Source: Pseudomonas silesiensis (lineage in GTDB: Bacteria; Pseudomonadota; Gammaproteobacteria; Pseudomonadales; Pseudomonadaceae). From it: a DNA stretch of 64,000 nucleotides. The translations under genes and the position numbers were made by a program. Position 1 is the stretch's first letter, and every line of letters begins with the position of its first letter. The notes below the pieces were generated by a model. The model searched no databases and was not told where the DNA came from. It worked only from the letters and a program-made list of their open reading frames with translations. Where the stretch lies: the NCBI RefSeq assembly GCF_001661075.1, contig NZ_CP014870.1, positions 5,027,703 through 5,091,702 of the forward strand, in the 5' to 3' direction. Below, piece after piece: positions 3,154 to 44,935 of this stretch.

Positions 3154-3242
3154 AAGGCACCTCGTTGAGGTTAATGATCGGTACTGACGAGCACTATCGA
3201 AGGCACAGTGATAACCGTCCAATCAAAACTTGAAATAAGGCG

Positions 3243-3257
3243 ATAGCCTTGGGTTAT
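3243..3257. promoter_or_regulatory. LysR-type operator dyad 1
   Basis: The 15-base dyad ATAGCC-TTG-GGTTAT fits the T-N11-A pattern of LysR-type operators. It lies about 90 bases upstream of the amidohydrolase start. The same dyad consensus, ATARCC-N3-GGYTAT, recurs at 3372-3386, and a LysR gene is in the same cluster. Confidence 0.6.
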
Positions 3258-3371
3258 GTCAAACCCTGATTTCAGGTGGCTTGCGGGGTATTGCGCCTAT
3301 GCCGACTTTCCACTCAAATGGCTCTGGCGCGGGACTCCTGGCGAGACAGGCGATTTAGATCGTGGCGACCT

Positions 3372-3386
3372 ATAACCCCAGGCTAT
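3372..3386. promoter_or_regulatory. LysR-type operator dyad 2
   Basis: ATAACC-CCA-GGCTAT is a second copy of the dyad, in the opposite sense to the first, about 118 bases upstream of tctC. Two matching dyads between divergent operons suggest shared control. The rest of the 3154-3503 gap holds no gene I can see. Confidence 0.6.
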
Positions 3387-3503
3387 CGGCGTATGTATTG
3401 TTTTGACTAGACGCGCAGGCACTGTCTTCCCACACTCACTCCAGGCTTGCAGCTTTCACCACCGACAAGTCATTTATAACAACTACAAAAACGAGGCCCT
3501 TCC

Positions 3504-4517
3504 ATGCGAAATGCATTCGTCCGTCGCACGTCCCGTCTGGCTCTTGGTTGCACACTGGTCGCAGCAGGGATCCTCCCGGCTCTGGCTCACGCCTGGCAAC
3601 CGGACAAGAACGTCGAAATCGTCGTCGCCGGTGGCCCCGGTGGCGGTACCGACCAGCTCGGTCGCCTGATCCAGTCGATCATCACCACTCACAAGTTCCT
3701 CGACGTCAACACCATCGTCCTGAACAAAGGCGGCGGCAATGGCGCCGAAGCCTTTCTCGACCTGAAAATGAACAAGGGCGATCCGGAAAAACTGGTGATC
3801 GGCACCAACAACATCTACCTGTTGCCGCTGGTGTCCAAGCTCGGTTATCAATGGCAGGAACTGACCCCGGTAGCGGCCGTGGCCGAGGATGACTTCATTC
3901 TCTGGAGCTACAAAGGCGCACCGTGGAAAGATGCCAAGGGCTTCTACGAAGCCGCCAAGGCCGACCCGTCGAAACTGCGCATGGGCGGCAGCCAGTCCAA
4001 GGATGTCGACCAGACCCTGACCCTGCTGTTGAACCAGACCAACAACAGCAAACTGGTGTACATCCCGTTCAAGAGCGGCAGTGAAGCCGCGACCCAACTG
4101 GCCGGCAAGCACATCGCCGCCAACGTCAACAATCCCAGCGAAAGCATCAGCCAATGGCGTGGCGACCAGGTCGAGCCGCTCTGCGTGTTCAGTAAGGAGC
4201 GCATGAGTTATACCGAGAAAGTCGCCGGCGAAAAATCCTGGGCCGACGTTCCGACCTGCCATGAACAGGGCCTGGGCATCGATCAGTACCGCTTCCCGCG
4301 CACCGTGTTCATGCCCGGCGAAGTCACCGCCGAACAGCGCGCGTTCTATGTCGAGTTGATGCGTAAAGTCACCGAGACCCCGGAGTTCAAGGCCTACGTC
4401 AAGCAGAACGCGCTGGTGCCGACTTTCCTCGAAGGCGAGCCACTGACAGCCTACATCGAAAAAGACACCGCACGCGTTACCCCGGTGTTCAAAGAAGCCG
4501 GCTGGCTGAAAAACTGA
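3504..4517 (+). CDS. tctC: Tripartite tricarboxylate transporter substrate-binding protein
   Basis: Periplasmic solute receptor of the TctC/Bug family, 337 residues, which captures a carboxylate for the TctAB membrane complex. The N-terminus has an Arg-rich start, a hydrophobic core (LALGCTLVAAGILPALAHA) and a plausible cleavage site before WQPDKN. The family segment VAGGPGGGTDQLGR follows near residue 50, where the two loops contact the ligand carboxylate. The gene is first in tctC-tctB-tctA-lysR, the usual order for this transporter class. Its divergence from the lactonase and PdxA-like genes suggests the ligand is the substrate of that pathway. Which acid is bound cannot be told from sequence. 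Confidence 0.9.
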   Translation: MRNAFVRRTSRLALGCTLVAAGILPALAHAWQPDKNVEIVVAGGPGGGTDQLGRLIQSIITTHKFLDVNTIVLNKGGGNGAEAFLDLKMNKGDPEKLVIGTNNIYLLPLVSKLGYQWQELTPVAAVAEDDFILWSYKGAPWKDAKGFYEAAKADPSKLRMGGSQSKDVDQTLTLLLNQTNNSKLVYIPFKSGSEAATQLAGKHIAANVNNPSESISQWRGDQVEPLCVFSKERMSYTEKVAGEKSWADVPTCHEQGLGIDQYRFPRTVFMPGEVTAEQRAFYVELMRKVTETPEFKAYVKQNALVPTFLEGEPLTAYIEKDTARVTPVFKEAGWLKN

Positions 4518-4570
4518 GTTGACCGCGGCCGTCCGCCTGCGCACGGCCGCCACCTGCTGGAGGTGCTTTC

Positions 4571-5104
4571 ATGTCCCAATCTTCGGATTCACCGGCGCTG
4601 GTCGGTACCCGCTGGGTCGAACTCGGTCTGACACTCTTCACCACGCTGATCGGCGTGGTGGTGATGTACGGCAGCGTCGAACAGGGTATCGGCTGGGGCG
4701 ATTCCGGCCCCGAGCCGGGTTACTTCCCCTTTTACATCGGCCTGCTGTTAAGCGCCGCGAGTGTAGGCAACGGCGTATTGACCCTGGTGCGCTGGAAAGC
4801 GCTAAGCATCTCATTCGTCAGCCGCAGTGCGTTCAGGCAAGTGCTGTCGGTGTTCATCCCGATTGCGCTGTTCGTGGCGGCCATGCCGTTCACCGGTATT
4901 TACGTGGCCTCGGCCTGCTTCATCGCCTGGTTCATGTGGCATGACAAAACCCGCGTCAAACCCTATGGCAAGTTGATGATCGCTTCTATATCCCTCGGTG
5001 CAGTCCTCGCCAGCTACCTGATTTTCGCACTGTGGTTCAAGGTCCCGCTGGATGCCGGCCCTGTAGGCGACTGGATTGCCCTGGCCGGGAGACATTTCAA
5101 ATGA
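4571..5104 (+). CDS. tctB: Tripartite tricarboxylate transporter small membrane subunit
   Basis: The 177-residue TctB subunit, an integral inner-membrane protein with about four hydrophobic segments (near residues 18-38, 50-70, 90-115 and 135-155). The conserved G-x-G-D-S-G-P-E-P-G-Y-F-P stretch lies near residue 40. It pairs with TctA to form the translocation unit. A GGAGGTGC ribosome site precedes the ATG. The stop overlaps the tctA start by four bases (ATGA), indicating coupled translation. Confidence 0.9.
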   Translation: MSQSSDSPALVGTRWVELGLTLFTTLIGVVVMYGSVEQGIGWGDSGPEPGYFPFYIGLLLSAASVGNGVLTLVRWKALSISFVSRSAFRQVLSVFIPIALFVAAMPFTGIYVASACFIAWFMWHDKTRVKPYGKLMIASISLGAVLASYLIFALWFKVPLDAGPVGDWIALAGRHFK

Positions 5105-6630
5105 GCGAGTTCGATTCCCTGCTGCAAGGCATGAACCTGATCCTGACCCCCGGCCATATCGGCCTGATGGTGATCGGCGTGCTGCTGGGCATTCTGGTCG
5201 GCGTATTGCCCGGCCTCGGCGCCCCCAATGGCGTGGCGTTGCTGCTGCCGCTGACGTTCACCATGTCGCCGGTGTCGGCGATCATCCTGTTGTCGTGCAT
5301 GTATTGGGGCGCGCTGTTCGGCGGCTCGATCACCTCGATCCTGTTCAACATACCCGGTGAGCCCTCATCGGTGGCGACCACCTTCGATGGCTACCCGATG
5401 GCCCGCGAAGGCCGCGCCGCCGAAGCGCTGACCGCGGCCTTCAGCTCGGCGCTGATCGGTGCGCTGGCCGGGGTATTGTTGCTGACGTTCCTGTCGACGC
5501 GGATTGCCGAATTCGCCATGTCCTTCAGTTCGCCGGAGTTCTTCGCGGTGTACCTGTTGGCGTTCTGCACCTTCATCGGCATGAGCAAGAACCCGCCGCT
5601 GAAAACCGTGGTGGCGATGATGATCGGTTTCGCCATGGCCGCAGTCGGCATGGACACGGTCTCGGGCAACCTGCGCCTGACCTTCGACCAGCCGACCCTG
5701 ATGACCGGCATCAGCTTCGAAGTGGCGGTCATCGGCCTGTTCGGCATTGGCGAAATCCTTTGCACGGTCGAGGAAGGCCTGGTGTTCCGCGGCGAGCATG
5801 CGCGCATCACCCCGATGGTCATCCTGCGTACCTGGGCCAAATTGCCCCGTTACTGGTGGACCATTGTGCGCAGCACCCTGGTCGGCTGCTGGATGGGCAT
5901 CACCCCTGGCGGGCCGACAGCTGCATCCTTCATGAGCTACAGCCTGGCGCGACGTTTTTCAAAGAACCGCGAGAACTTCGGCAAGGGTGAACTCGAAGGT
6001 GTGATCGCCCCGGAAACCGCCGACCATGCGGCCGGGACCAGCGCGCTGCTGCCGATGTTGACCCTGGGCATTCCGGGTTCGGCCACCGCCGCCGTGATGC
6101 TCGGCGGGTTGATGATCTGGGGCCTGCACCCTGGCCCGACGCTGTTCGTCGAGCAACATGACTTCGTCTGGGGCCTGATCGCGAGCATGTACCTGGGCAA
6201 CGTGGTGAGTCTGATCGTGGTGCTGGCCACCGTGCCGCTGTTCGCGTCGATCCTGCGCATTCCGTTCTCGATCATTGCACCGATCATCATCATGGTCTGC
6301 GCCATCGGGGCCTACTCGGTGCACAACTCGTTCTTCGACGTGGTATTGATGCTCGGCTTCGGTGCGCTGGGTTATCTGTTCAAGAAACTCGGTTACCCGA
6401 TCGCACCGCTGGTTCTGGCCGCGGTACTGGGGGACAAGGCCGAAGATGCTTTCCGTCAGTCGATGCTGTTCTCCGACGGTCACATCGGGATCTTCTGGTC
6501 GAACCCGTTGGTGGGCGGCCTGACCACGGCAGCGCTGCTGATGCTGTTCTGGCCACTGATTTCCAAAGCGCTGCAAACCCTGATGGGCCTGCGCAAACCC
6601 CAGCTCGCCAAGCCAAAATCGGTGCTGTGA
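5101..6630 (+). CDS. tctA: Tripartite tricarboxylate transporter large permease
   Basis: The 509-residue TctA permease with about 11-12 membrane segments. It carries the family glycine-rich motif GVLPGLGAPNGVALLLPLTF near residue 35 and a second, PGSATAAVMLGG, in the middle; these internally repeated halves form the transport path. I chose the ATG at 5101 because it overlaps the tctB stop and gives the family N-terminus MSEFDSLLQG. It acts with TctB in the inner membrane and takes ligand from TctC by a cation-driven mechanism. Confidence 0.93.
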   Translation: MSEFDSLLQGMNLILTPGHIGLMVIGVLLGILVGVLPGLGAPNGVALLLPLTFTMSPVSAIILLSCMYWGALFGGSITSILFNIPGEPSSVATTFDGYPMAREGRAAEALTAAFSSALIGALAGVLLLTFLSTRIAEFAMSFSSPEFFAVYLLAFCTFIGMSKNPPLKTVVAMMIGFAMAAVGMDTVSGNLRLTFDQPTLMTGISFEVAVIGLFGIGEILCTVEEGLVFRGEHARITPMVILRTWAKLPRYWWTIVRSTLVGCWMGITPGGPTAASFMSYSLARRFSKNRENFGKGELEGVIAPETADHAAGTSALLPMLTLGIPGSATAAVMLGGLMIWGLHPGPTLFVEQHDFVWGLIASMYLGNVVSLIVVLATVPLFASILRIPFSIIAPIIIMVCAIGAYSVHNSFFDVVLMLGFGALGYLFKKLGYPIAPLVLAAVLGDKAEDAFRQSMLFSDGHIGIFWSNPLVGGLTTAALLMLFWPLISKALQTLMGLRKPQLAKPKSVL

Positions 6631-6648
6631 TACAGCAATGCTGGCAAC

Positions 6649-6669
6649 GCCTGACATTTGTTGTCAGGC
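6649..6669 (+). terminator. Hairpin between tctA and lysR
   Basis: A perfect 8-bp stem, GCCTGACA with TGTCAGGC, and a 5-base loop sit 18 bases past the tctA stop. The only T-run (CTTTTT) comes about 13 bases later, so this may be a weak terminator or mRNA-stabilising hairpin that lowers expression of the downstream regulator. Confidence 0.45.
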
Positions 6670-6699
6670 TTGCCGCAGTCCTTTTTCGCGAGCGCGGCC

Positions 6700-7644
6700 A
6701 TGACCCGAATTCCCGTTGCCAATGTGATCCACAGTCGCCTGCGTCTGCGCCAGCTACGGCTGATGCTGGCGTTGCAGGAATTCGGCTCGTTGCGCCGGGC
6801 CGCCGACCACATCGGCATGACCCAACCGGCAGCGACCAAGATGCTGCACGAAGCCGAGGACCTGCTGGGTGTGGAGCTCTTCGAGCGGCTGCCCCGGGGC
6901 ATGCGCTCCACCCCGTTCGGAGAAACCGTCACCTATTACGCACGCATGGTGTTCGCCGAACTCAGCGGCATGCGTGAAGAGCTGGTCGCACTCGAATCTG
7001 GCAACCTGGGCCGGGTTGCGGTCGGCGCAATTCCGGCGCTGGCTTCAGGGTTGTTGACCCGCACCATTGCCACGTTGAAACAAAGTCATCCACGGTTATC
7101 CATGAGCATCCAGGTCGACACCAGCGACGTACTGGTGCAGGCGCTGTTGCAGGATCAACTGGATATCGTGCTGGGGCGGATTCCGGCGGGTGCGCGGGCC
7201 GAGGAATTACTGTTCGACAGCTTGGGTGAAGAAGCGCTCTGCGTGATTGCCGGTGCGCAAAATCCCCTGGCGAAAGAAAAGCAATTGAGTTGGGCGGAAC
7301 TGCAGAACATGACATGGGTGCTGCAGCAGCATCCAAGCCCGATGCGCGCGATCATCAATCAGGTGTTCCACAACGCGCGGGTCGACATCCCCAGCAGCAT
7401 TGTCGAAACCACCTCGATCATGACCTTGCTGTCATTGATTCAGCAGACCGACATGCTCGGCGTAACACCGGTGTCGGTGGTCGAGGACTATCCGGGCCGT
7501 GATCTGCTGGCCGTGTTGCCGATCAAGTTCGAAGCCCGGTTGCCGCCCTATGGGCTGATCACCCGGCGTCATCGCATTCAGTCGTCGGCGATGCAGGCGT
7601 TCATGAATTCAGTGCGGGCGGAACATGCGCGGGTGTTGGCGTAG
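6700..7644 (+). CDS. LysR-family regulator of the TTT cluster
   Basis: A 314-residue LTTR. The winged helix-turn-helix lies near residues 15-75 (LRLMLALQEFGSLRRAADHIGMTQPAATKML), and the effector-binding domain extends from about 95 to the end. It resembles the GbpR/PcaQ-like branch often found at the ends of TTT operons. I chose the ATG at 6700, which puts the HTH at the usual distance from the start. It probably controls the divergent promoters at 3154-3503 through the two ATARCC-N3-GGYTAT dyads. Its TAG stop is formed by the first bases of a REP element (GTAGGAGCG), so the native C-terminus may have been altered by that insertion. Confidence 0.87.
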   Translation: MTRIPVANVIHSRLRLRQLRLMLALQEFGSLRRAADHIGMTQPAATKMLHEAEDLLGVELFERLPRGMRSTPFGETVTYYARMVFAELSGMREELVALESGNLGRVAVGAIPALASGLLTRTIATLKQSHPRLSMSIQVDTSDVLVQALLQDQLDIVLGRIPAGARAEELLFDSLGEEALCVIAGAQNPLAKEKQLSWAELQNMTWVLQQHPSPMRAIINQVFHNARVDIPSSIVETTSIMTLLSLIQQTDMLGVTPVSVVEDYPGRDLLAVLPIKFEARLPPYGLITRRHRIQSSAMQAFMNSVRAEHARVLA

Positions 7645-7757
7645 GAGCGAGCTTGCTCCGGGCGGCGTTCCGACGAAAATTTCAAGGGCGACGCTCTGAT
7701 TCAGGAATTACGCGTCATCGTTAACGTCCATCGCGAGCAAGCTCGCTCCTACAGGGG
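7641..7757. repeat. REP pair (inverted)
   Basis: Two inverted REP arms, GTAGGAGCGAGCTTGCTCC at the left and its variant ending CTCGCTCCTAC at the right, surround a short spacer. The left arm overlaps the stop codon of the LysR gene. Such pairs form mRNA hairpins and are scattered by REP-associated transposases; none is encoded in this window. Confidence 0.85.
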
Positions 7758-7782
7758 ACCGTGTTTGATTCGGGAATATGCA

Positions 7783-8721
7783 TCAACCAAACAACCAATA
7801 CCCCAACAACGTCAAGACAACGACCGCCAATACTGGCCGCATTACGCGGTATGCCTTGGGGTTACGACGCTTCCACTGTCTGATCCCGCCACTGAACCTG
7901 TCACCGAAGTGCTTGGTCCGGGCATAGGCCTGGTTGATCCCGCCAACCCGTTCGTCATCCAGGTTCTGCGGTGCGGTGGCGCGGCCCAGAAAGCCACTGA
8001 CCCAACGGTTGATACGGGTCATGAAGCGGTTACTCAGCGGACGTTCGACATCGCAGAACAGGATGACCCGGGGCATTTGCGTTTCGTTCTTGACCCAGTG
8101 CACATACGTCTCGTCGAACATCACGTCCTCGCCATCACGCCAGGCGTAAATCTGACCATCGACGAAAATGCGGCAGTCGTCGGAGTTAGGCGTCGACAGC
8201 CCCAAGTGATAACGCAGGGAGCCGGCAAACGGGTCGCGGTGCGGGTTGAGGTGACTGCCGCCCGGCAGCAAGGCAAACATGGCGCCTTTGACGATGGGAA
8301 TGCCACTGAGCAGGGCCACGGTTTTCGGGCACAGGGTTTGTGCCGAGGGCAGCGGTTTGTCATACCACTTGAGATAGAAACGCTTCCAGCCCTTCTTGAA
8401 GAACGAGCCGAACCCCGCATCGTTGTTCTTCTTGGCAGCCCGGATGTAACCCTCGTCGAACAGGTGCATCGCTTCGTCGCGGATGACTTCCCAGTTGTCC
8501 TTGAGTACATCCAGTTCGGGGAATTTTCTGCGGTCCAGATAGGGTCTGGACGGCACGCTGGAGAACAGGTACATCAAGGCGTTATAGGGGGCAAACAGCG
8601 CCGAGTGGTTGACGAACTGACGCAGGACCGGCAACCGCGCCTTGCCGCGCAAATGCACATAAAGAGTACTGCCCAGAAACAGCAGCAACAGCGACGCCTT
8701 CGCGGCAAGGGAAAAGGTCAT
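7783..8721 (-). CDS. lpxO: LpxO-like aspartyl/asparaginyl beta-hydroxylase
   Basis: A 312-residue Fe(II)/2-oxoglutarate dioxygenase, similar to LpxO, which 2-hydroxylates acyl chains of lipid A. The N-terminal hydrophobic segment (LAAKASLLLLFLGSTLYV) and the C-terminal one (VLAVVVLTLLGYWLF) would anchor it in the inner membrane. The catalytic core includes HLNPHRDPF (His-x-Asp iron ligands) and FDETYVHWVKN (third His). I chose the ATG at 8721 rather than an upstream one at 8817, as MTFSLAAK fits known LpxO starts. Pseudomonads often have two paralogs, so the paralog number is not assigned. Confidence 0.85.
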   Translation of the reverse strand: MTFSLAAKASLLLLFLGSTLYVHLRGKARLPVLRQFVNHSALFAPYNALMYLFSSVPSRPYLDRRKFPELDVLKDNWEVIRDEAMHLFDEGYIRAAKKNNDAGFGSFFKKGWKRFYLKWYDKPLPSAQTLCPKTVALLSGIPIVKGAMFALLPGGSHLNPHRDPFAGSLRYHLGLSTPNSDDCRIFVDGQIYAWRDGEDVMFDETYVHWVKNETQMPRVILFCDVERPLSNRFMTRINRWVSGFLGRATAPQNLDDERVGGINQAYARTKHFGDRFSGGIRQWKRRNPKAYRVMRPVLAVVVLTLLGYWLFG

Positions 8722-8922
8722 CAGCAACTCCTTGATAGTCGACAACTCTGCACAACGCCATTTACCCAGCGTTGCAGCCGGCATGATAAACACTACCGGC
8801 GTCGGGAAAACCTGCAAGAATCAACATTCACTGTTGAGGAATATGCAACAAAGCACTTCTAACACAAGGCTCCTGAACGGGGGCTGACCTGAGTCATCCC
8901 CCCCCTTTTCACAAGATTGAAA

Positions 8923-8939
8923 GATCGCAGCCTGCGATC
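8923..8939. repeat. GATCGCA palindrome
   Basis: A short inverted repeat, GATCGCA-N3-TGCGATC, lies just past the cysK stop. It has no T-run and may be an mRNA 3'-end hairpin of cysK rather than a full terminator. The rest of the 8722-8948 gap shows no gene. Confidence 0.5.
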
Positions 8940-8948
8940 GTTCGATTG

Positions 8949-9923
8949 TTACTGCTGAGTCTCCTGCTCGGTAAACAGATCACTGAACAACATGCTCGAC
9001 AGGTAGCGCTCGCCGGAGTCGGGCAGGATCACCACAATGGTCTTGCCCTGCATTTCAGGGGTTTCTGCCAGTCGGACCGCTACAGCCATCGCCGCGCCAG
9101 AGGAGATCCCGCACAAAATCCCTTCTTCCTGCATCAAACGCAGGGCCATGGCCTTGGACTCTTCATCGCTGACCAGCTCGACCCGATCGACCATCGACAG
9201 GTCCAGATTTTTCGGCACGAACCCGGCCCCGATACCCTGGATCTTGTGCGGGCTTGGTTTGATCTCCTCCCCGGCCAGGGCCTGGGTGATGACCGGCGAT
9301 GACACCGGCTCCACGGCCACCGAAATGATCGGTTTGCTCTGGGTATTCTTGATATACCGCGAAACCCCGGTAATGGTTCCACCTGTTCCAACGCCAGCCA
9401 CCAATACATCGACCGCACCATCGGTATCGTTCCAGATTTCCGGGCCAGTGGTTTTCTCGTGAATGGCCGGGTTGGCCGGGTTGTCGAACTGCGCGGGCAT
9501 GAAATAGTTGGACGGGGCGCTGGCAACAATTTCAGCTGCTTTCTCGATCGCACCCTTCATGCCCTTGGCCGGTTCAGTCAAGACCAGCTCTGCGCCGAGG
9601 GCCTTGAGCACTTTGCGTCGCTCGATACTCATGGAGGCCGGCATGGTCAGCATCAACTTGTAACCACGCGCCGCGGCAACAAACGCTAGCCCGATACCGG
9701 TATTGCCCGACGTCGGCTCGACGATGGTCATGCCCGCTTTGAGTTTGCCGGAGCTTTCGGCGTCCCAGATCATGTTCGCGCCGATCCGGCACTTGACCGA
9801 ATAACCAGGGTTGCGCCCCTCGGTCTTGGCCAGGATGGTCACGCCGCGCGGGGCGATGCGGTTGATCTGCACCAGCGGCGTATTGCCGATGGAATGGGCG
9901 TTGTCAGCGAAAATACGGCTCAT
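8949..9923 (-). CDS. cysK: Cysteine synthase A
   Basis: O-acetylserine sulfhydrylase, a PLP enzyme that makes L-cysteine from O-acetylserine and sulfide; 324 residues, the usual length. The PLP lysine lies in [13 protein letters not shown] (about residue 44). The substrate loop [11 protein letters not shown] follows near residue 70, and the phosphate-binding [14 protein letters not shown] near 175. CysK is normally subject to sulfur-limitation control, but no CysB site was identified here. It diverges from the DUF748 gene across about 125 bases. Confidence 0.93.
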
Positions 9924-37089: not shown

Positions 37090-38007
37090 TCAAATTTGCA
37101 GTGTCCCCCTTACCAAGGCTTCCAGCCTGGGCAAAATGCTCGCTTCGTCATTGCCCAAAATGGCAATCGAAGAACCACGCAACCCTGCCGATGAAGCGGC
37201 GGCTGCGTCGCCGGCCAACGCCACTGGGCACGTAACGCCCATTTGAAGGGCACGCAGGCGCTGGTGCGCATCGGCCTGCAGTGGCACCTGGACCCATAAC
37301 ACCAGCGCGGCGGGCTGAATGGCCTTACACAGCAACGGCAGTTCTTCCAGGGGTTGCCCCGTGCCCAGCACCTCGATGCGCAGCTGGTCATTGCTCATCG
37401 ACAAACCGGCACACAACAGCTCCAGTTCGCGCGCATGGCCCGAGCCGTCTGCCAGCAGCACGCAAGCACCGTTGCTCTGATTCATCTGCAGTCGCAATAA
37501 CATCCGCGCACGCAAGAAGGTGTCCAGGAACAGCCACTGACTGCGGCGGCCGAAAGCATTGCCGGATACCAGGCTGCGCCAGACCGGCAGCAGAATGGCC
37601 TCCAGCACCGTAGCCTTCGGGTAGATGGTGAACAGTTGCCCGTGAAGGCGCTCCAACTCGGCGCCATCAAAAGCCTGGGTGGCGCGATGAACGGCCTCTT
37701 GCCATTGGACCAGGGGGGCTTCGGCCGAGCCTGATGCAGCGATACCGGGTGTGTTCTGCTGCTGGACGAGCAATGCGCCGATCTTGCTGATAGGCAGGCC
37801 CCGGCTGGTCCAGAGCATGATGCTGCGGATATGTTCGATGTCCTGTTGCGAATACAGGCGATGCCCGCCCACCGTGCGTACGGGTCGGATCAGCCCGTGG
37901 CGGCGCTCCCAGGCCCGCAGGGTGATCGGGTTGACGCCGGTCAGGCTGGCGACTTCCCGCATGGGGAGCAAAACGTCGTCGGAGGCGGATTCGATGGGCT
38001 CGGTCAT
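37090..38007 (-). CDS. MerR-family regulator, class II LitR-like
   Basis: A 305-residue regulator: N-terminal MerR HTH (REVASLTGVNPITLRAWERRHGLIRPVRTVGGHRLYS, residues 17-53), followed by a helical domain and a cobalamin-binding-like Rossmann domain. The DxHxxG cobalamin ligand is absent (ADGSGHARELELL), as in the Pseudomonas class II LitR/PplR proteins that sense light through a partner LOV protein. A short LOV gene diverges from it, 162 bases away. By analogy it should repress the nearby lipid operon in darkness. The TRTAYA sites described below are the likely targets, by inference. Confidence 0.85.
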   Translation of the reverse strand: MTEPIESASDDVLLPMREVASLTGVNPITLRAWERRHGLIRPVRTVGGHRLYSQQDIEHIRSIMLWTSRGLPISKIGALLVQQQNTPGIAASGSAEAPLVQWQEAVHRATQAFDGAELERLHGQLFTIYPKATVLEAILLPVWRSLVSGNAFGRRSQWLFLDTFLRARMLLRLQMNQSNGACVLLADGSGHARELELLCAGLSMSNDQLRIEVLGTGQPLEELPLLCKAIQPAALVLWVQVPLQADAHQRLRALQMGVTCPVALAGDAAAASSAGLRGSSIAILGNDEASILPRLEALVRGTLQI

Positions 38008-38169
38008 TAAAAGTTGTTGCCTCCTGAGTGTGTCGGCATTCTAAACCAGGCATGACACGTTTTAACCAGCCTCCATCGATGTCCGGTCCCTGCGCCCTGC
38101 CATCTAGGCATGGCTGTCGCTGACGACTACGCTGTGGGGCAAACCTGCGAACCACAGCGAGCCCAGCCC

Positions 38170-38616
38170 ATGATTGACGCCAAACTCCTGCAACTGATGG
38201 TCGAAGCCTCCAATGACGGCATCGTCGTGGCCGAGCAGGAAGGCGATGACAGCATCCTCATCTATGCCAACCCTGCCTTCGAGCGCCTGACCGGCTACAG
38301 TGCCGACGACATTCTCTACCAGGATTGCCGTTTCCTGCAGGCAGACGATCATGCCCAGGCCGGCCTGCAGGCCATCCGCGACGCCATCCGCCTCGGTCAG
38401 CCTTGCCGTCAGGTACTGCGCAACTATCGCAAGGATGGCAGTCCGTTCTGGAACGAGCTGTCGATCACGCCCGTGCACAATGAGGCCGACCAGTTGACCT
38501 ACTACATCGGCATACAGCACGACGTCAGCGACAAGATTGCCGCCCTGGAAAGGATCCAGTCACTTGAGAGCGAAGTGGCTGAGCTGCGCCGCCAACTGGC
38601 CAAGACCGGTGGCTGA
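38170..38616 (+). CDS. Short LOV-domain photoreceptor
   Basis: A 148-residue LOV protein of the PpSB1-LOV type from P. putida. The PAS core begins ASNDGIVVAE and carries YQDCRFLQ with Cys53, which should form a light-induced flavin adduct; NYRKDGSPFWNELSITPV is also conserved. The C-terminal helix (LERIQSLESEVAELRRQL) would dimerise it, as in known short LOV proteins. I chose the ATG at 38170, which gives the MIDAKLLQLMVEASNDGI start. There is no output domain, so it probably signals by binding the LitR-like protein. That partnership was reported for P. putida, as I recall, and is not shown here. Confidence 0.9.
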   Translation: MIDAKLLQLMVEASNDGIVVAEQEGDDSILIYANPAFERLTGYSADDILYQDCRFLQADDHAQAGLQAIRDAIRLGQPCRQVLRNYRKDGSPFWNELSITPVHNEADQLTYYIGIQHDVSDKIAALERIQSLESEVAELRRQLAKTGG

Positions 38617-38646
38617 TACCCGTTACGTTACGACCGGCACAAAAAG

Positions 38647-38721
38647 TGTACAAGAATATTGACTTGTACAATTTTCGACGTAGTCTTCAGGTAAACCTGT
38701 ACAGTTTTCTCGACTTGTACA
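38647..38721. promoter_or_regulatory. Four TGTACA operators in two 18-bp-spaced pairs
   Basis: TGTACA occurs at 38647, 38665, 38698 and 38716. The pair spacing is exactly 18 bases in each pair and the two pairs are 51 bases apart. The last three sites are flanked by CTTGTACAATTTT-like surroundings or a variant of them. A candidate promoter, TTGACT (38659-38664) with TAGTCT (38681-38686), has the second site in its spacer. This arrangement would let a MerR-type regulator block transcription of the operon starting at 38741. Confidence 0.75.
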
Positions 38722-38740
38722 ATTTTGCCTGGAGCCTGCC

Positions 38741-39163
38741 ATGTCCGCGTATCTGCGCCATTTCGCTGACACGTTCGCAACGCTGAACGCTGATAGCCTG
38801 CACCGACTGGGCGAGCTCTACAGCAACGACGTGCAGTTTCGTGATCCCTTGCATCAGCTGGACGGCCTGCCGGCACTGCGCCGTTACTTTGAAAAGCTGT
38901 ACACCCACGTCGAGGATATCCGCTACGACCTCCTTGACGTGGATGAAACCGCGCCTGGCCACGGTTACCTGCGCTGGAACCTGCATTTCCGTCATCCACG
39001 CCTGTCCCGCGGCCAGCCGATCAGTCTGCAAGGCTGCAGCCACCTGCGCTGGGCGCAACAGGTCTACCTGCACCACGACTACTTCGATGCCGGCGCCCTG
39101 CTCTACGAGCACGTCCCGGTTCTTGGCGGGGTGATCGGCTGGCTCAAGGGCAGGCTCGCATGA
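38741..39163 (+). CDS. NTF2-like (SnoaL family) protein
   Basis: A 140-residue alpha+beta cone-fold protein. The pattern LYSNDVQFRDPLHQLDGLPALRRYFEKLY is typical of the SnoaL/NTF2 family. It could be a small hydrolase, isomerase or ligand-binding protein. It is the first gene of the light-linked operon and overlaps the SDR start as ATGA. A GGAG ribosome site precedes the ATG. Confidence 0.8.
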   Translation: MSAYLRHFADTFATLNADSLHRLGELYSNDVQFRDPLHQLDGLPALRRYFEKLYTHVEDIRYDLLDVDETAPGHGYLRWNLHFRHPRLSRGQPISLQGCSHLRWAQQVYLHHDYFDAGALLYEHVPVLGGVIGWLKGRLA

Positions 39164-39909
39164 GCCGCTGCTGGCTGACAGGCGCCAGCAGCGGCCTCGG
39201 TGCGGCCCTGGCTGAACGGCTGCTGGAGCAAGGCCATGAAGTAGCCCTGGGTGGCCGGCGCCCGGAGGCACTGATGCCGCTGGTGCTGCGCTACCCCGGG
39301 GCCCTGCTCGCGATTGGTGATGTGACTGACCCACACCATGTTTCGGCCATCTGCGAGAACATCGAGCATGCGTGGGGCGCGCTGGACCTGGTGATCCTCA
39401 ACGCCGGCACCTGCGAATATCTTGTGCCGGGCCTGTTCGAAGCCGAGACAGTCGAGCGTGTGATGCGCACCAACCTGCTGGGGGTCAGTTACTGCCTGCA
39501 GGCGGCCCTTCCCCTGCTGCGCCGCGGGCAACGACCACACCTGGTAGTGATCGGCAGCTCGGTGACCTGGCTGGCGCTGCCGCGGGCTGGAGCCTATGGC
39601 GCTTCCAAGGCGGCCCTGCGTTATCTGGTCGAATCCCTGCGCCTGGATCTATACGCCGAAGGCATCGATGTAACGCTGGTCAGCCCGGGGTTCATCGACA
39701 CACCCCTGACCCGGCGCAATGCCTTTGCCATGCCCCAACTCTGGAGCGCCGACCGCGCCGCGCGGCATGTCCTCGCGCGCCTGACGCGACGTCCGCTGGA
39801 GATCAACTTTCCACGCCTCTTCATTCTCGTCCTGCGCCTGCTTGGCGCCCTGCCAGCGCGTTGGCGCCTGGCACTGGGCCGTCGCCTGGCGCGAACCGAA
39901 CAGGAATAG
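39160..39909 (+). CDS. Short-chain dehydrogenase/reductase
   Basis: A 249-residue classical SDR. The NAD(P) motif is TGASSGLG near residue 6, NAG lies near 80, and the catalytic Ser...Tyr-x3-Lys are in VIGSSVTWLALPRAGAYGASK. It should reduce or oxidise a hydroxyl/carbonyl on the operon's substrate. The start overlaps the NTF2-like gene stop by four bases, so translation is coupled. The stop is followed by only six bases before the next start. Confidence 0.9.
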   Translation: MSRCWLTGASSGLGAALAERLLEQGHEVALGGRRPEALMPLVLRYPGALLAIGDVTDPHHVSAICENIEHAWGALDLVILNAGTCEYLVPGLFEAETVERVMRTNLLGVSYCLQAALPLLRRGQRPHLVVIGSSVTWLALPRAGAYGASKAALRYLVESLRLDLYAEGIDVTLVSPGFIDTPLTRRNAFAMPQLWSADRAARHVLARLTRRPLEINFPRLFILVLRLLGALPARWRLALGRRLARTEQE

Positions 39910-39915
39910 CGTCAC

Positions 39916-41163
39916 ATGCGTATCGCCATCATCGGTAGCGGGATCTCTGGGCTGACCTGTGCCTATCTACTGTCACGTCGCAATGAGGTGACCGTGTTCG
40001 AAGCCGCTGACTGGATCGGCGGTCATACCCATACCGTCGACATCGAATGGCACGGCCAGCGCTATGCCGTGGACACCGGTTTCATCGTCTTCAACGACTG
40101 GACCTACCCCAACTTCATTCGCTTGCTGGATAGCCTGGGAGTCGTCTCGCGCCCCACTGAGATGAGCTTTTCCGTGAACGATCCGGACAGCGGCCTGGAA
40201 TACAACGGCAATAGCCTGGACTCCCTGTTCGCCCAGCGCGGCAATCTGCTGTCGCCGGGCTTCTGGGGAATGTTGCGCGATATCGTGCGCTTCAACCGGC
40301 AGGCGGTGGCCGACCTTGACGGCCACCGCATCGAGCCCGGCATGGGTCTTGGCGACTACCTGCACACACGAGGCTACGGGCAGCGATTCATCCATCACTA
40401 CATCGTCCCCATGGGTTCGGCCATCTGGTCGGTATCAAGGGCCGATATGCTGCGCTTCCCGCTGCACTTCTTCGTGCGTTTCTTTCGTAACCATGGCCTG
40501 CTCTCGATCAGCCGGCGGCCACAGTGGCGAGTGATCGAGGGGGGCTCGCGCAGCTACGTGGAGCCGTTGTGCAAGACCTTCAGCGAACGCATTCGGCTCA
40601 ATTGCCCGGTGACGAGCGTCCGTCGGGACGACACCGGCGTGGTGATCACTAGCGCCGCAGGCCAGGAGCGTTTCGACAAGGTCGTGTTCGCCTGCCATAG
40701 CGACCAGGCTTTGGCCCTGCTGGAGAAACCGACGACCAGCGAGCACGAGGTACTTGGCGCCCTCGACTATGCCGCCAACGAAGTCTTGCTGCACACCGAC
40801 ACCCGCCTGCTGCCCAGCCGGCGCAAGGCCTGGGCCAGCTGGAACTATCGCCTCGGCGGACCCGCCCACGCTCCGGCGGCCGTGACCTATAACATGAACA
40901 TCCTGCAAGGCCTCGACGCCCCGGTGACCTTCTGCGTAAGCCTCAATCAGGGCGATAGCGTGGACCCGTCGCAGGTGCTGGCACGCTTCAATTATGCCCA
41001 TCCCCAATACAGCCTTGCCGCCATGGCGGCCCAGGCGCGCCAGGGTGAGCTACAAGGAAACCGGCACAGCTACTTCTGCGGCGCTTATTGGGCAAACGGC
41101 TTCCATGAGGATGGCGTGGTCAGCGCACTGGACGTGGCGCAACGGTTCGGGGAGCGCCTATGA
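39916..41163 (+). CDS. FAD-dependent oxidoreductase (amine oxidase/phytoene-desaturase-like)
   Basis: A 415-residue flavoprotein. The dinucleotide motif is IIGSGISGLTCAYLL at the N-terminus with EAADWIGGHTHTVD after it, and an FAD-terminal motif GAYWANGFHEDGVVSAL lies at the end. The family includes phytoene desaturases and the UfaO/UfaD-like enzymes of Rhodobacter fatty-acid modification. It may oxidise or desaturate an acyl or isoprenoid chain. It overlaps the next gene by ATGA. Confidence 0.88.
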   Translation: MRIAIIGSGISGLTCAYLLSRRNEVTVFEAADWIGGHTHTVDIEWHGQRYAVDTGFIVFNDWTYPNFIRLLDSLGVVSRPTEMSFSVNDPDSGLEYNGNSLDSLFAQRGNLLSPGFWGMLRDIVRFNRQAVADLDGHRIEPGMGLGDYLHTRGYGQRFIHHYIVPMGSAIWSVSRADMLRFPLHFFVRFFRNHGLLSISRRPQWRVIEGGSRSYVEPLCKTFSERIRLNCPVTSVRRDDTGVVITSAAGQERFDKVVFACHSDQALALLEKPTTSEHEVLGALDYAANEVLLHTDTRLLPSRRKAWASWNYRLGGPAHAPAAVTYNMNILQGLDAPVTFCVSLNQGDSVDPSQVLARFNYAHPQYSLAAMAAQARQGELQGNRHSYFCGAYWANGFHEDGVVSALDVAQRFGERL

Positions 41164-41972
41164 ACAGCAGCCTTTGCTACGGTTGGGTCAGCCACCGGCG
41201 CCTGGCGCCGCGGCTCCATGCATTCCGCTATCGCAGCGGCATGTTTTACCTGGACCTAGACGAACAGCAACAGTTGCTGGGCCTGTCCCCGCTGCTCGGT
41301 GCCTCTCGCCTGGCGCCGTTGTGCTGGCGAGAAACCGATTACCTGCCAGCCTGGACTCGTCGCGGCATGCCCTTGAAGGACGCGGTGCGCGAAGTGGTGG
41401 CCAAGGCCCTGGGCCAGTCGCCGTGCGGCGCCATTTATTTGCTGACCCAGCCGCGCAGTTGGGGGATTTCATTCAATCCGGTCAGTTTCTATTTTTGCCA
41501 CGACAGCGACGGGCGCCTGGCGGCGATTGTGCTGGAGGTCCGCAACACACCCTGGCGTGAGCGCTTTCACTACGTGTTGCCGGTGCTGCCCGGTCAGCCC
41601 CGGCAATTCTCGGTCACCAAGGCCTTCCATGTCTCGCCGTTCCTGCCGATGGACATGCAGTACCACATGCGCTTCCACATCGATGGCGAGCACCTGCGCA
41701 TCCACATGGAAAACCGCCGCGAAGGGCAAAAAGTCTTCGAGGCCGACCTGGCCCTGCGCCGCCAGCCACTGGATGCCGGCGCGCTACGACGGCACGTACT
41801 GGCCTTCCCCTGGATGAGCCTGCGCACCCTCGGCGCCATTTATTGGCAAGCCATGCGCCTGTTGCTCAAGCGCACCCCGCTCTACGCCCACACGACCCGT
41901 CAGAGCAGCCAAAACCCTGGCCACCCTGTCCACGAGGAGTCCGAGCATGTCCGATCCAACTCTGAGCGTTAG
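41160..41972 (+). CDS. DUF1365 domain protein
   Basis: A 270-residue DUF1365 member, with GISFNPVSFYFCHDSDGRL near residue 105, HYVLPV and HVSPFLPMDMQYHMRF near residue 155. DUF1365 genes regularly sit with cyclopropane-fatty-acid-synthase homologs and FAD oxidoreductases, in Rhodobacter in the singlet-oxygen response. Exact chemistry is unknown. It overlaps the next gene by 26 bases. Confidence 0.88.
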   Translation: MNSSLCYGWVSHRRLAPRLHAFRYRSGMFYLDLDEQQQLLGLSPLLGASRLAPLCWRETDYLPAWTRRGMPLKDAVREVVAKALGQSPCGAIYLLTQPRSWGISFNPVSFYFCHDSDGRLAAIVLEVRNTPWRERFHYVLPVLPGQPRQFSVTKAFHVSPFLPMDMQYHMRFHIDGEHLRIHMENRREGQKVFEADLALRRQPLDAGALRRHVLAFPWMSLRTLGAIYWQAMRLLLKRTPLYAHTTRQSSQNPGHPVHEESEHVRSNSER

Positions 41973-43206
41973 CAAATCCTTTGGCCTGGCGCCGTTGTTC
42001 GGCGGCCTGGCCAGAAGCGCCGTGCTCGCGCAACTTCGCAACCTGCGCCAAGGCCGTCTGCGCCTGATCTGCAAAGGCCGGCAGTGGCTGTTCGGCGATG
42101 CCGGCAGCGCACTGCATGCCGAGGTCGAGATCTTCGACGACGCAGCCTGGAGCATGGTGGCGGCCAACGGCTCGATCGGTGCCGGCGAAGCTTACATCCA
42201 CGGCTACTGGCGCAGTCCGGACCTGGCCGCGGTCACCCGCCTCTTCGTTGCCAACCTTGAGGTGCTCGACGCCCTTGAAGGCGGGATCGCGCGCCTGGGC
42301 CGTCCGGTCCTGCGCTTGCTGCACTGGTTCAACCGCAACAGCCGGCGCGGCTCGCGGCGCAACATCCTGGCCCATTACGATCTGGGCAATGCCTTGTTCG
42401 AGCGGCTGCTGGACCCGACCATGATGTACTCGGCAGCCATGTTCGACAGCCTGGAGCAGAGCCTGGAGCAGGGCCAACTGAACAAGCTCGAGCGTATCTG
42501 CGACAAACTCGCGCTGCACCCCGACGATCATCTGCTCGAGATCGGTACCGGATGGGGTAGCCTGGCGATCCATGCCGCCACCCGCCACGGCTGCCGGGTG
42601 ACCACCACCACGTTGTCCGAGGCGCAGTACGCCCATACCCTGCAGCGCGTCCGCGATCTTGGCCTGCAAGAGCGCATTACCGTCCTGCGCGAGGACTACC
42701 GCGACCTGGGCGGACGCTTCGACAAGCTGGTCTCGATCGAGATGATCGAGGCGGTCGGGCACCGCTATCTGCCGCTTTACTTTCGCCGCTGCGCCTCGCT
42801 GCTCAAGGATGACGGCTTGATGCTGCTGCAGGCCATCACCATCCGCGACCAGCGCTATGAGCAGGCCCAGCGGTCGGTGGATTTCATCCAGCGTCATATC
42901 TTTCCCGGTGGTGCCCTGCCCTCCTTGAGCGTCATGCTTCAGACTGCCAGTCGCCACACCGCGTTGAACCTGGTGCACATGGAGGACTTCGGCCTGGACT
43001 ATGCGCGCACGCTCAAGCACTGGCGCGACAACTTGCGCCAGTCGCGCAGCGCCTTGGTCGAGCTGGGGTATGACGACACCTTTCAGCGCCTCTGGGAGTT
43101 CTATCTGTGTTACTGCCAAGGCGGTTTCGAGGAGCGCGCTATCGGCGTCGCGCAACTGCTCTGGGCAGCCCCGGCCGCCCGCCGCGCATCGCTGCCGGCC
43201 GCCTGA
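41947..43206 (+). CDS. Cyclopropane-fatty-acid synthase-like SAM methyltransferase
   Basis: A 419-residue protein of the CFA synthase family, which transfers a methyl(ene) group from SAM to the double bond of phospholipid acyl chains. NILAHYDLGNALFERLLDPTMMYSAAMF is the substrate region near residue 140, and the SAM motif LLEIGTGWGSLAIHAA follows near 200. LYFRRCASLLKDDGLMLLQAI and the C-terminal HTALNLVHMEDFGLDYARTL are typical. In this operon it is the main clue that membrane lipids are the target. Confidence 0.9.
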   Translation: MSDPTLSVSKSFGLAPLFGGLARSAVLAQLRNLRQGRLRLICKGRQWLFGDAGSALHAEVEIFDDAAWSMVAANGSIGAGEAYIHGYWRSPDLAAVTRLFVANLEVLDALEGGIARLGRPVLRLLHWFNRNSRRGSRRNILAHYDLGNALFERLLDPTMMYSAAMFDSLEQSLEQGQLNKLERICDKLALHPDDHLLEIGTGWGSLAIHAATRHGCRVTTTTLSEAQYAHTLQRVRDLGLQERITVLREDYRDLGGRFDKLVSIEMIEAVGHRYLPLYFRRCASLLKDDGLMLLQAITIRDQRYEQAQRSVDFIQRHIFPGGALPSLSVMLQTASRHTALNLVHMEDFGLDYARTLKHWRDNLRQSRSALVELGYDDTFQRLWEFYLCYCQGGFEERAIGVAQLLWAAPAARRASLPAA

Positions 43207-43207
43207 C

Positions 43208-43699
43208 TTGAGCCGGGCCTGGTTGATCGGCAACGCGCTATGGATGCAGGCCGCCTGGTGGGCTTGCGTGCTGAGCGAACGGCATCCCTGGCTGCTACTG
43301 CCAGTGGTGGCAGGCCTGTTGGTGCATGTGGCTGCTTGCCCACGGCCGGGAGACGAAGCAACCGCACTGGTCTGCGTGGGGCTGACAGGCTGGATGCTGG
43401 ATGCCGGCCTGGGTGCGCTGGGCGTCTTCGATTTTGCCCGGCAACCCCTGCCCCTATGGCTCGCCCTGCTCTGGTTGGTGCTGGCCAGTGGGCTTCGCCA
43501 CAGCCTGGCCTGGGCTCGACGCCCTGTGTGGTACGGCGCGCTACTGGGCCTGTGCGGTGGACCTCTGGCTTACCTCGCCGGCGCACCGCTGGCCGGTGTC
43601 GGCCTGCCTTGGGACACCCTTGGCACGGCCCTGCTGCTCGCGCCACTGTGGGCGGTCTGGATGCCGCTCATCCTGCGAATGGCTGCGCCCCGCTCATGA
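43208..43699 (+). CDS. DUF2878 membrane protein
   Basis: A 163-residue inner-membrane protein with about five hydrophobic segments and the DUF2878 pattern NALWMQAAWWACVL. It begins with TTG at 43208, one base after the CFA-like gene's stop, matching MNxxLLxNALWFQxxW starts in the family; no better ATG exists. The role is unknown; position suggests a membrane component of the lipid pathway. The stop overlaps an ATG (43696), but no sustained coding frame follows. Confidence 0.75.
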   Translation: MSRAWLIGNALWMQAAWWACVLSERHPWLLLPVVAGLLVHVAACPRPGDEATALVCVGLTGWMLDAGLGALGVFDFARQPLPLWLALLWLVLASGLRHSLAWARRPVWYGALLGLCGGPLAYLAGAPLAGVGLPWDTLGTALLLAPLWAVWMPLILRMAAPRS

Positions 43700-43748
43700 A
43701 TCTGTTTGCCCGGGAACGCAAACGCCTGCCTCGGCCCGTCATCGAGGG

Positions 43749-44285
43749 TCACGGAAGCGACTGCGGCTGGCGGCGGAAGAACAGGGTCACTTGTCCCAAC
43801 TCGACGCCAAGCTTGCTCATGCTCGAGCGATTGATCATCGTGTCTTCGTCCATCAAGTACATCCAGTCGTCCAGATCAACTTCCCAATGCCTGCCGTCAA
43901 CCGGCAGGTCAAGACGATAGCGCCAGCGCAGCGCGTTGCCAGCGACCTCGCCCCTGGCCTCTCCGATTACGTCGTCCGCACGACCACGCCAATGCCCGGC
44001 GCCGGCCGGTTCCAGCGTCCAGACGCGCCGCTGACGCGTGCCATCGCTGTAGAGAAAACGCTCGTCGAGGATCAGCTGCCGACCCTCGACGCGGCTTTCG
44101 ATCCGGACATGGAAACGCTTGACCACCTCGCCCGAGCGATTCTGGAACATACCCCAGGCCTGTACCGGCCGGGAGAAGAACGCCACCAGATCCAGGGTCG
44201 GTCGCTCCCTTGCGTAGTGCTCCACGCCAATGTTGTTACAGCTGACCAGCAACAGGCTAACGAGCAGTACCAGTATTTGACGCAT
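43749..44285 (-). CDS. DUF3833 lipoprotein
   Basis: A 178-residue lipoprotein. The signal peptide ends at the lipobox LLVSC, so Cys16 is probably lipidated. The mature part has DUF3833 features such as YDxDLDDWMYLMDEDTMINR-like residues near 145. It is probably outer-membrane-facing and transported by Lol. The 10-base gap from the chalcone-isomerase-like gene indicates a shared transcript. Function is unknown. Confidence 0.85.
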   Translation of the reverse strand: MRQILVLLVSLLLVSCNNIGVEHYARERPTLDLVAFFSRPVQAWGMFQNRSGEVVKRFHVRIESRVEGRQLILDERFLYSDGTRQRRVWTLEPAGAGHWRGRADDVIGEARGEVAGNALRWRYRLDLPVDGRHWEVDLDDWMYLMDEDTMINRSSMSKLGVELGQVTLFFRRQPQSLP

Positions 44286-44295
44286 CTCAACCTCC

Positions 44296-44856
44296 TCACT
44301 CCGCCGGCCCGACTATCCCCAGCAGTTGTTGACGCAATTGCTGATCCCGGGTGCGCGGATCAAGCCAGATGTCGAAGAAGGCGCGGGCGAATGCAGGGTC
44401 CTCGACCCGCCGACGCAGCTGGCCGTCGACGAAGAAACTGCAGCCAAAGCCTGGATGGTAGACCCCGGTAATCCGCATTCCGGGCCGCACATCGACGAAG
44501 GCGCCACGCATTTCACTGGACCAGCGTTGGAGAGTTGAGTCCTCTGGACGAGCCCCTGCCATGCGACGCATTTCCTTGAGACTGGCCTCCACCAGCGTGT
44601 CCCTGGAAAAGGCACGGTGGTAAGTCAGTTCGAGTGCAAAGGGCTGATCCCAGGTCAGCGGCAACCCAGCGCTCCACAACCGCGCGGTGTATAGATTTAC
44701 GCCGAACCAGGTGAAGTCGCCGCTGCCCACCAGACGCCCATCGGGCAGCGCGGGATTCCCATCCGCCCAGGCAGGTAAGGCCAGTACTAGCGCGAACAGC
44801 CAGCATCTCGACCGACGATGTACGAGAAAGCGTCTGGAATCAGCCACGTTCATCAA
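44296..44856 (-). CDS. Chalcone isomerase-like protein
   Basis: A 186-residue secreted protein with a signal-like start (CWLFALVLALPAWA) and the chalcone-isomerase fold: GSGDFTWFGVNLYTARLWS and a late FVDGQLRRRVEDPAFARAFFDIWLDP. Bacterial members of this fold mostly bind fatty acids or lipids rather than isomerise flavonoids. Its upstream TRTAYA pair implies control by the same regulator as the 38741 operon. The start may instead be an in-frame ATG one codon later. Confidence 0.85.
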   Translation of the reverse strand: MMNVADSRRFLVHRRSRCWLFALVLALPAWADGNPALPDGRLVGSGDFTWFGVNLYTARLWSAGLPLTWDQPFALELTYHRAFSRDTLVEASLKEMRRMAGARPEDSTLQRWSSEMRGAFVDVRPGMRITGVYHPGFGCSFFVDGQLRRRVEDPAFARAFFDIWLDPRTRDQQLRQQLLGIVGPAE

Positions 44857-44880: not shown

Positions 44881-44935
44881 TATACAAGACTAGCTCAATG
44901 TATAGTTTTTGCGCGATAAATAGAGAACATGTACA
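44881..44935. promoter_or_regulatory. TRTAYA operators upstream of the chalcone-isomerase-like gene
   Basis: TATACA (44881-44886) and TGTATA (44899-44904) are 18 bases apart, the same spacing as in the 38647-38721 array, and an unpaired TGTACA lies at 44930. They precede the divergent lipid-associated unit on the minus strand. The rest of 44936-45239 shows no gene. Confidence 0.65.

Follow-up and report, generated by a model that had tools for sequence, protein, structure and literature searches.

A group of ten genes in Pseudomonas silesiensis very probably encodes a system for making furan fatty acids that is induced by blue light and controlled by a short LOV blue-light receptor together with a repressor of the class II LitR type. 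The genes lie between positions 37090 and 44853 of the window, i.e., the whole stretch of 64,000 nucleotides that was analyzed (bases 5,027,703-5,091,702 of the single-contig 6.82-Mb genome). The evidence from this strain consists of the gene content, the operator sites, the conservation, the active-site type of the methyltransferase UfaM, and the predicted barrel of a DUF3833 protein. The LOV/LitR mechanism, the light induction, and the chemistry of UfaM, UfaD, and UfaO have been described for relatives, and we infer that they work in the same way here. Taken together, the locus is real and well conserved, and it most likely serves furan fatty acid production under the control of light. The mechanism had been proposed largely correctly in an earlier reading based on the sequence alone (the sequence-only reading), but its implied novelty did not hold, because published work already covers light induction, the LOV anti-repressor, and the furan pathway with its three enzymes (PMC9758184, PMC7380195), and most of the mechanism is thus known. 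New is that the DUF3833 and chalcone-isomerase-like (CHI) families are tied to the light/singlet-oxygen furan response by operator, gene order, and co-occurrence.

The proposed control of the operon by LitR and LOV is backed by operator copies that are placed as in a published promoter of P. mendocina. The operator of PplR1 and PmlR2 is given as T(G/A)TACA-N12-TGTA(C/T)A, and in the P. mendocina promoter used to test PmlR2 and PmSB-LOV, the -35 element TTGACT is overlapped by Site 1, with Site 2 located between the start site and the ATG (PMC9758184). Exact copies were found at five places in the 6.82-Mb genome, i.e., at 863255 and 863306 and at the window positions 38647, 38698, and 44881. 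Two of them precede the ufa operon, one precedes the CHI-DUF3833 unit, and two precede a rudS-pplR1-phrB operon. The three exact copies in the window compare with none in 100 dinucleotide shuffles. Operator 1 (38647..38670) and operator 2 (38698..38721), both on the plus strand and both with the sequence TGTACA-N12-TGTACA, resemble in their layout Site 1 and Site 2 of the published promoter P6650. The second operator starts 51 bp after the first and ends 19 bases before the first gene of the operon. As in the P. mendocina layout, a -35-like TTGACT (38659-38664) is located inside operator 1; it belongs to a predicted promoter (38659..38686, plus strand), TTGACT-N16-TAGTCT, which was assigned by eye in comparison with the TTGACT-N16-TATGAT of P. 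mendocina. The third exact copy (44881..44904, minus strand), TATACA-N12-TGTATA, belongs to the CHI-DUF3833 unit. The window scan revealed no exact copy between the LitR and LOV genes, which agrees with the finding that the expression of pmlR2 and pmSB-LOV hardly changes in light (PMC9758184).

The operator is conserved within the genus. Of 20 same-genus ufa loci, 19 have a copy with one mismatch at most where the first operon gene begins, and in the twentieth the contig begins inside ufaO. In three loci (L034, L037, and L041) the copy falls within the predicted rudS reading frame, close to the 5' end. The spacing of 12 bases yielded 40 exact matches over the 20 loci, compared to 0-2 at the other spacings from 6 to 20, and the mirrored pattern yielded none. 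No exact operator was found in 59 ufa loci from other genera of the class, and therefore the operator is a Pseudomonas feature. Where a CHI-DUF3833 unit is linked to ufa genes, it is preceded by the operator in six of seven loci.

The regulator gene (37090..38007, minus strand) encodes a MerR protein of 305 amino acids (Pfam MerR_1 PF13411, E=2e-15). A cobalamin-ligand motif had been noted as lacking, and this was confirmed: the Pfam search gave no match to PF02310 or PF02607 at E 0.001, and a motif search did not find E-x-H-x-x-G/A, which we take to be the mark of B12 binding. The published class II LitR proteins retain a weak PF02607 match, unlike the window protein. Two LitR paralogs are encoded elsewhere in the genome (46% and 33% identical to the window LitR), and the paralog at 861 kb has a weak PF02607 match. 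With a MerR helix-turn-helix, no B12 domain, and the operator at its putative target promoters, the regulator can be classified as a class II LitR.

The adjacent gene (38170..38616, plus strand) encodes a short LOV protein of 148 amino acids without an effector domain; only PAS families were matched in Pfam (PAS_9), and the match to the NCBIfam YtvA-family model was below the cut-off of that model. The photoactive cysteine is intact, as had been read from the sequence, and is residue 53, in the motif YQDCRFLQ, when counted from the most likely start, ATG 38170. Residues 61 and 66 (window 38350-38367) are His and Leu, respectively, which are Arg in the slow PpSB1-LOV, and dark recovery of the window LOV may thus be fast. 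A second short LOV, 58% identical, is encoded at 5.608 Mb.

In P. mendocina LOV acts as an anti-repressor, i.e., the light-activated LOV releases the class II LitR (PMC9758184). By analogy, in the dark LitR would occupy the paired operators over the ufa operon promoter and the single operator before the CHI-DUF3833 unit. Blue light would lead to an adduct between Cys53 and flavin mononucleotide in LOV, which would then bind LitR and remove it from the DNA. UfaM would methylate the cis-vaccenoyl chains of phospholipids, UfaD would add a second double bond, and UfaO would insert an O2-derived oxygen, resulting in a methyl-furan acyl chain as a singlet oxygen scavenger. The CHI-like protein and the DUF3833 lipoprotein would be envelope proteins, most likely binding or moving furan or oxidised acyl chains; their role is the least certain step of the mechanism.

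All ten genes named in the sequence-only reading were verified as reading frames at their places, each matching its named Pfam family. The operon on the plus strand starts with an NTF2/SnoaL-like protein (38741..39163, 140 amino acids, SnoaL_2, E=2.8e-13) and a short-chain dehydrogenase/reductase (SDR; 39160..39909, 249 amino acids, adh_short, E=1.5e-36). These are followed by a UfaD-type FAD oxidoreductase, a fatty acyl desaturase (39916..41163, 415 amino acids, Amino_oxidase and NAD_binding_8), a UfaO-type DUF1365 protein (41160..41972, 270 amino acids, E=1.7e-77, 260.7 bits), a UfaM-type S-adenosylmethionine-dependent methyltransferase (41947..43206, 419 amino acids, CMAS, E=2e-83, 280.3 bits), and a DUF2878 protein with an uncertain start codon (43208..43699, E=5.2e-36, 124.7 bits). 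The convergent unit on the minus strand comprises the CHI-like protein (44296..44853, 185 amino acids, Chalcone_3, E=4.6e-12, 46.8 bits) and a DUF3833 lipoprotein (43749..44285, 178 amino acids, lipobox LVSC, E=2.1e-67, 226.2 bits). The CHI gene had been read from a TTG at 44856; the gene stands, and its start is most likely the ATG at 44853.

The window thus encodes, together, one protein each of the UfaM, UfaD, and UfaO families, and the DUF1365 protein is the sole copy in the genome (one match). In R. sphaeroides these three enzymes suffice to convert cis-vaccenoyl phospholipid to the 9M5-furan fatty acid; UfaO is the DUF1365 protein, the furan oxygen comes from O2, and the furan acid vanishes under singlet oxygen, which kills cells that cannot produce the acid (PMC7380195). 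The claim that the chemistry of the set was undescribed therefore does not apply to these three enzymes, whereas for DUF2878, DUF3833, and the CHI-like protein no description of a role in the light or furan response was recognized among the open-licence papers listed.

The methyltransferase had been called similar to cyclopropane fatty acid (CFA) synthase, which is true for its family. If it were a cyclopropane synthase, the operon would make cyclopropane or other ring lipids instead of furans; NCBIfam CFA models do match the protein, albeit below their cut-offs, and a blue-light-induced V. cholerae gene has been described as CFA synthase. We regard this as highly improbable. The genome encodes a separate CFA synthase at 6.724 Mb, which has the best CMAS score of the genome, above that of the window protein. 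In the alignment, this protein has kept a Cys and a His at the positions that we take to be the bicarbonate site of E. coli CFA synthase, and the window protein has Ala and Gln instead. The His position is occupied by Gln in 143 of 144 UfaM-type proteins, and the Cys position by Ser (78), Ala (49), Cys (16), or Gly (1). Among 41 lower-scoring CMAS proteins from the same loci, 30 have His and nine have Gln; five of the 46 such proteins were left out by length. In the comparison with the own CFA synthase and the 144 UfaM-type proteins, the active site of the window protein thus appears to be of the UfaM type rather than the CFA type, and it may be inferred that the His/Gln residue decides the product. 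In addition, overexpression of the Halomonas ufaM is reported to have led to a furan fatty acid intermediate, and that of the Halomonas cfa to cyclic fatty acids. Lipid modification by a furan-forming set therefore remains the preferred reading.

The conservation of the locus, which the sequence-only reading had suggested to check, was analyzed in 163 mapped stretches. These comprise 80 from genus and class genomes fetched by DUF1365 or DUF3833, 80 fetched by the DUF1365 profile, two further loci of the own genome, and the window, and thus the mapped loci were selected by DUF1365 or DUF3833. UfaD, UfaO, and UfaM occurred together in 152 of them. Of these 152 ufa loci, 63 lack NTF2 and 49 lack SDR, and SDR accompanies NTF2 in 86 of 89 NTF2 loci. 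This steady core of three enzymes speaks against the view that the substrate is a different hydrophobic molecule, such as one resembling a polyketide or carotenoid, whose chemistry would be carried out by the NTF2-like, SDR, and CHI-like proteins. The resemblance of UfaD to phytoene desaturases and the frequent occurrence of SnoaL-like, SDR, and CHI folds in pathways for small molecules would fit such a substrate, which we nevertheless consider quite improbable.

At the genome level, 229 genomes of the class contained DUF1365 in 68, DUF3833 in 35, and DUF2878 in 41 cases. DUF1365 was present in 32 of the 35 DUF3833 genomes compared to 36 of the 194 others, and in 30 of the 41 DUF2878 genomes. 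In 149 genomes of the genus, DUF1365 was found in 109 and DUF3833 in 83, and all 83 are within the 109, so that DUF3833 is present in 83 of 109 DUF1365-bearing genomes and in none of the 40 others. The P values for co-occurrence are tiny, but they ignore shared ancestry.

This co-occurrence also argues against the possibility that the CHI-DUF3833 unit is a bystander that lies beside the operon by chance. The unit is convergent and on the other strand, and homologs are found elsewhere in many genomes of the genus, which would suit a bystander. On the other hand, it has its own exact operator, and the ufa genes and these two form one gene run in other species, among them Shewanella insulae, Pseudoalteromonas phenolica, Aeromonas sanarellii, and Salinivibrio siamensis. 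Moreover, in two relatives (G274 and G286) open CHI and DUF3833 genes stand beside decayed ufa pieces. Of 40 chosen DUF3833 units far from DUF1365, 14 carry an exact operator and three an operator with one mismatch, and the mirrored pattern was not found at DUF3833 units. A chance neighborhood is therefore unlikely, and a functional connection of the unit with the furan response is preferred. The relics in G274 (L235, 6900-11900) and G286 (L236, 8355-10654) are of NTF2-SDR-UfaD-UfaO or UfaO-UfaM-DUF2878 genes, and a complete ufa operon is present at another place in G274 (L047).

The lipobox Cys16 of DUF3833 is invariant in 36 aligned sequences, and the structure model is a ten-stranded closed beta barrel (predicted local distance difference test score 94.6); the prediction is thus a lipoprotein whose barrel resembles those of calycins. 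Its best named relative, from P. lini, is 94% identical. The CHI-like protein has an N-terminus that looks like a signal sequence by eye and is probably secreted; five alignment columns are invariant among 22 sequences. DUF3833 has also appeared in other contexts. An Erwinia study named a DUF3833 gene adjoining a CFA-like gene as an infection marker (PMC8465259), a DUF3833-RudS pair adjoins transposases on the Klebsiella plasmid NZ_CP014763 (L234, 8929-10436), and of 147 plasmid records in which DUF3833 was matched, 95 are from Klebsiella.

Several observations weigh against the proposed system. When one mismatch is allowed, the operator matches at 19 places in the genome, little above the 13 places of the reversed control pattern counted at the same threshold. 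The -10 sequence TAGTCT is poor, and the candidate promoter was not reported by a strict automatic promoter scan. The two LOV-LitR loci outside Pseudomonas (L065 and L101) show no such operator. Of the 40 distant DUF3833 units, 23 lack an operator even with one mismatch, which would also favor a bystander. DUF1365 is absent from 11 of the 41 DUF2878 genomes of the class, and DUF2878 is therefore less tied to the ufa set. In the Rhodobacter operon, single deletions of RSP1087, RSP1088, and RSP1089 are reported to have left the fatty acid profile unchanged; the lengths (245, 186, and 402 amino acids) and the order suggest that they encode an SDR, a DUF3833 protein, and a transporter, and a role of DUF3833 in furan fatty acid synthesis is therefore unlikely.

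The same cassette is found under different regulators. In Shewanella insulae, Pseudoalteromonas phenolica, Motilimonas pumila, and a Vibrionales strain, the genes are arranged in one direction as ECF-ChrR-RudS-Phr-NTF2-SDR-UfaD-UfaO-UfaM-DUF2878-CHI-DUF3833, the first being an extracytoplasmic function (ECF) sigma factor. The operon headed by ECF-ChrR in other genera bears out the proposed link to singlet oxygen; neither protein was found by Pfam among the ten window genes, to which the scan was confined. In Aeromonas sanarellii and Salinivibrio siamensis the set is the same except that ECF-ChrR is absent and LitR is located between RudS and Phr. In view of these single-direction operons, the split layout of the window seems to have arisen by rearrangement of a single operon. 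Among the 152 ufa loci, many of which are near relatives, LitR was found in 59, ECF-ChrR in 23 (one locus has both and is counted in each), and neither in 71. In six loci, the window among them, LOV and LitR are no more than 2.5 kb apart, and the B12 motif is absent from all six of these LitRs. It is present in 17 of 60 LitR proteins overall, in that of L034 probably by chance; the LitR protein of L089 is cut by the contig end. In L174 a motif-bearing LitR and a LOV-like gene are about 9 kb apart. In two Enterobacterales loci (L117, 5175-5903; L128, 5642-6370) a nearby MerR-type gene was caught by the LitR profile, and the one in L117 is MlrA-like according to Pfam. One lipid-protection cassette under several unrelated light or oxidation regulators is thus an example of regulator exchange.

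The accessory genes seem to come in two versions. CHI accompanies DUF3833 in 47 of 57 DUF3833 loci. NTF2 is rare together with DUF1295 (1 of 30) or the lipocalin Blc (2 of 21), and DUF3833 and Blc occur together in two loci. The other version (L055, L057, L058, L080, L081, L095, L105, L110, and others) has DUF1295, often with Blc, a fatty acid desaturase, or a second CMAS gene, and NTF2 is nearly always missing. Tentatively, DUF3833, with or without the CHI-like protein, might be an envelope module for handling lipids, induced by light or singlet oxygen and acting alongside furan fatty acid synthesis. Its membrane-anchored calycin barrel could bind, move, or clear furan or oxidised acyl chains, would be dispensable for making them, and could be replaced by Blc in the other version; the whole might be a portable photo-oxidative membrane kit whose regulator (LOV-LitR, B12-motif LitR, or ECF-ChrR) was exchanged between lineages. 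We consider this possible, though not probable.

The genome contains further light-linked loci. At about 857-865 kb (L029), rudS, pplR1, phrB, an SDR, and a second UfaD are on one strand, and the two exact operators of this locus are at the rudS start. The statement that no photolyase gene is present is thus correct for the ten genes but not for the genome, as this operator-bearing operon contains phrB at about 860-861 kb, after rudS and pplR1. In the same locus (G000:C1:855000-872000, 2725-9531), a one-mismatch operator precedes a renalase-like FAD gene and recurs in relatives. Another locus at about 5.608 Mb contains the second LOV, an unnamed gene, LitR, and folM-like, GTP cyclohydrolase I, and FolB-family genes.

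In a tree of 39 UfaD proteins, the window UfaD and seven others are on one side of a branch with support 95/92. These eight loci lack the rudS-litR-phr head, and LitR-LOV is in the stretch in four of them. The second own UfaD groups among P. fluorescens proteins of rudS-type operons. The GC content of the cassette is 63.3%, close to the richest stretch of the same size in the window (mean 60.3, standard deviation 1.1, highest 63.3). The tree and the GC content therefore point to two divergent versions in one genome, one of them eroded. The resident operon at 857-865 kb seems to have lost NTF2, ufaO, ufaM, and DUF2878, and the window to hold a second, complete, divergent version. A single UfaD was found in each of the seven other genomes with window-type loci and in 10 of 11 rudS-type genomes searched. 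This genome would thus be a case of two divergent cassette versions reduced to one complete set.

Several known systems can be compared. The PplR/PpSB-LOV light regulon of P. putida KT2440, on which Sumi reportedly published in 2020, is said to show light induction of such operons and a LOV/LitR mechanism of the same kind, and PP_2734-2740 of that strain presumably have a similar LOV-ufa layout. The UfaM-UfaD-UfaO pathway of Rhodobacter sphaeroides and Rhodopseudomonas palustris (PMC7380195) shares the same three enzyme families, and the Rhodobacter operon has further genes of SDR- and DUF3833-like length, as here. That pathway was studied in a chrR mutant (RpoE-ChrR, singlet oxygen), in contrast to LOV-LitR here, where NTF2-like, DUF2878, and CHI genes are added. 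In Vibrio cholerae, blue light induces the CFA-like VC1122 and photolyase-family genes, and a MerR-like regulator is involved, as here; two regulator kinds, ChrR and MerR-like, are described, and the sections of that report considered here mention no LOV (PMC5241685). RudS is encoded in rudS-litR-phrB light operons (PMC11417400), which match the second locus of the genome, whereas the window operon lacks rudS.

The closest match is the pmlR1/pmlR2-PmSB-LOV regulon of P. mendocina NBRC 14162, in which 6 h of light induced pmlR1 10-, phrB 28-, and ufaM 25-fold, and the induction of ufaM spanned 25- to 33-fold (PMC9758184). Common to both are a class II LitR with a short LOV, the operator and promoter layout, an operon (light-induced there) with SDR, FAD oxidoreductase, and ufaM, and a separate folM-folE-folX target; the gene set at 5.608 Mb is much like the pmlR2 region. 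A single nine-gene region of P. mendocina includes both phrB and pmlR1, and the LOV gene of that species is located with the fol genes. Here, by contrast, LitR and LOV are beside the ufa operon, phrB is at 860 kb with the eroded SDR-UfaD set, and the CHI-DUF3833 unit carries an operator.

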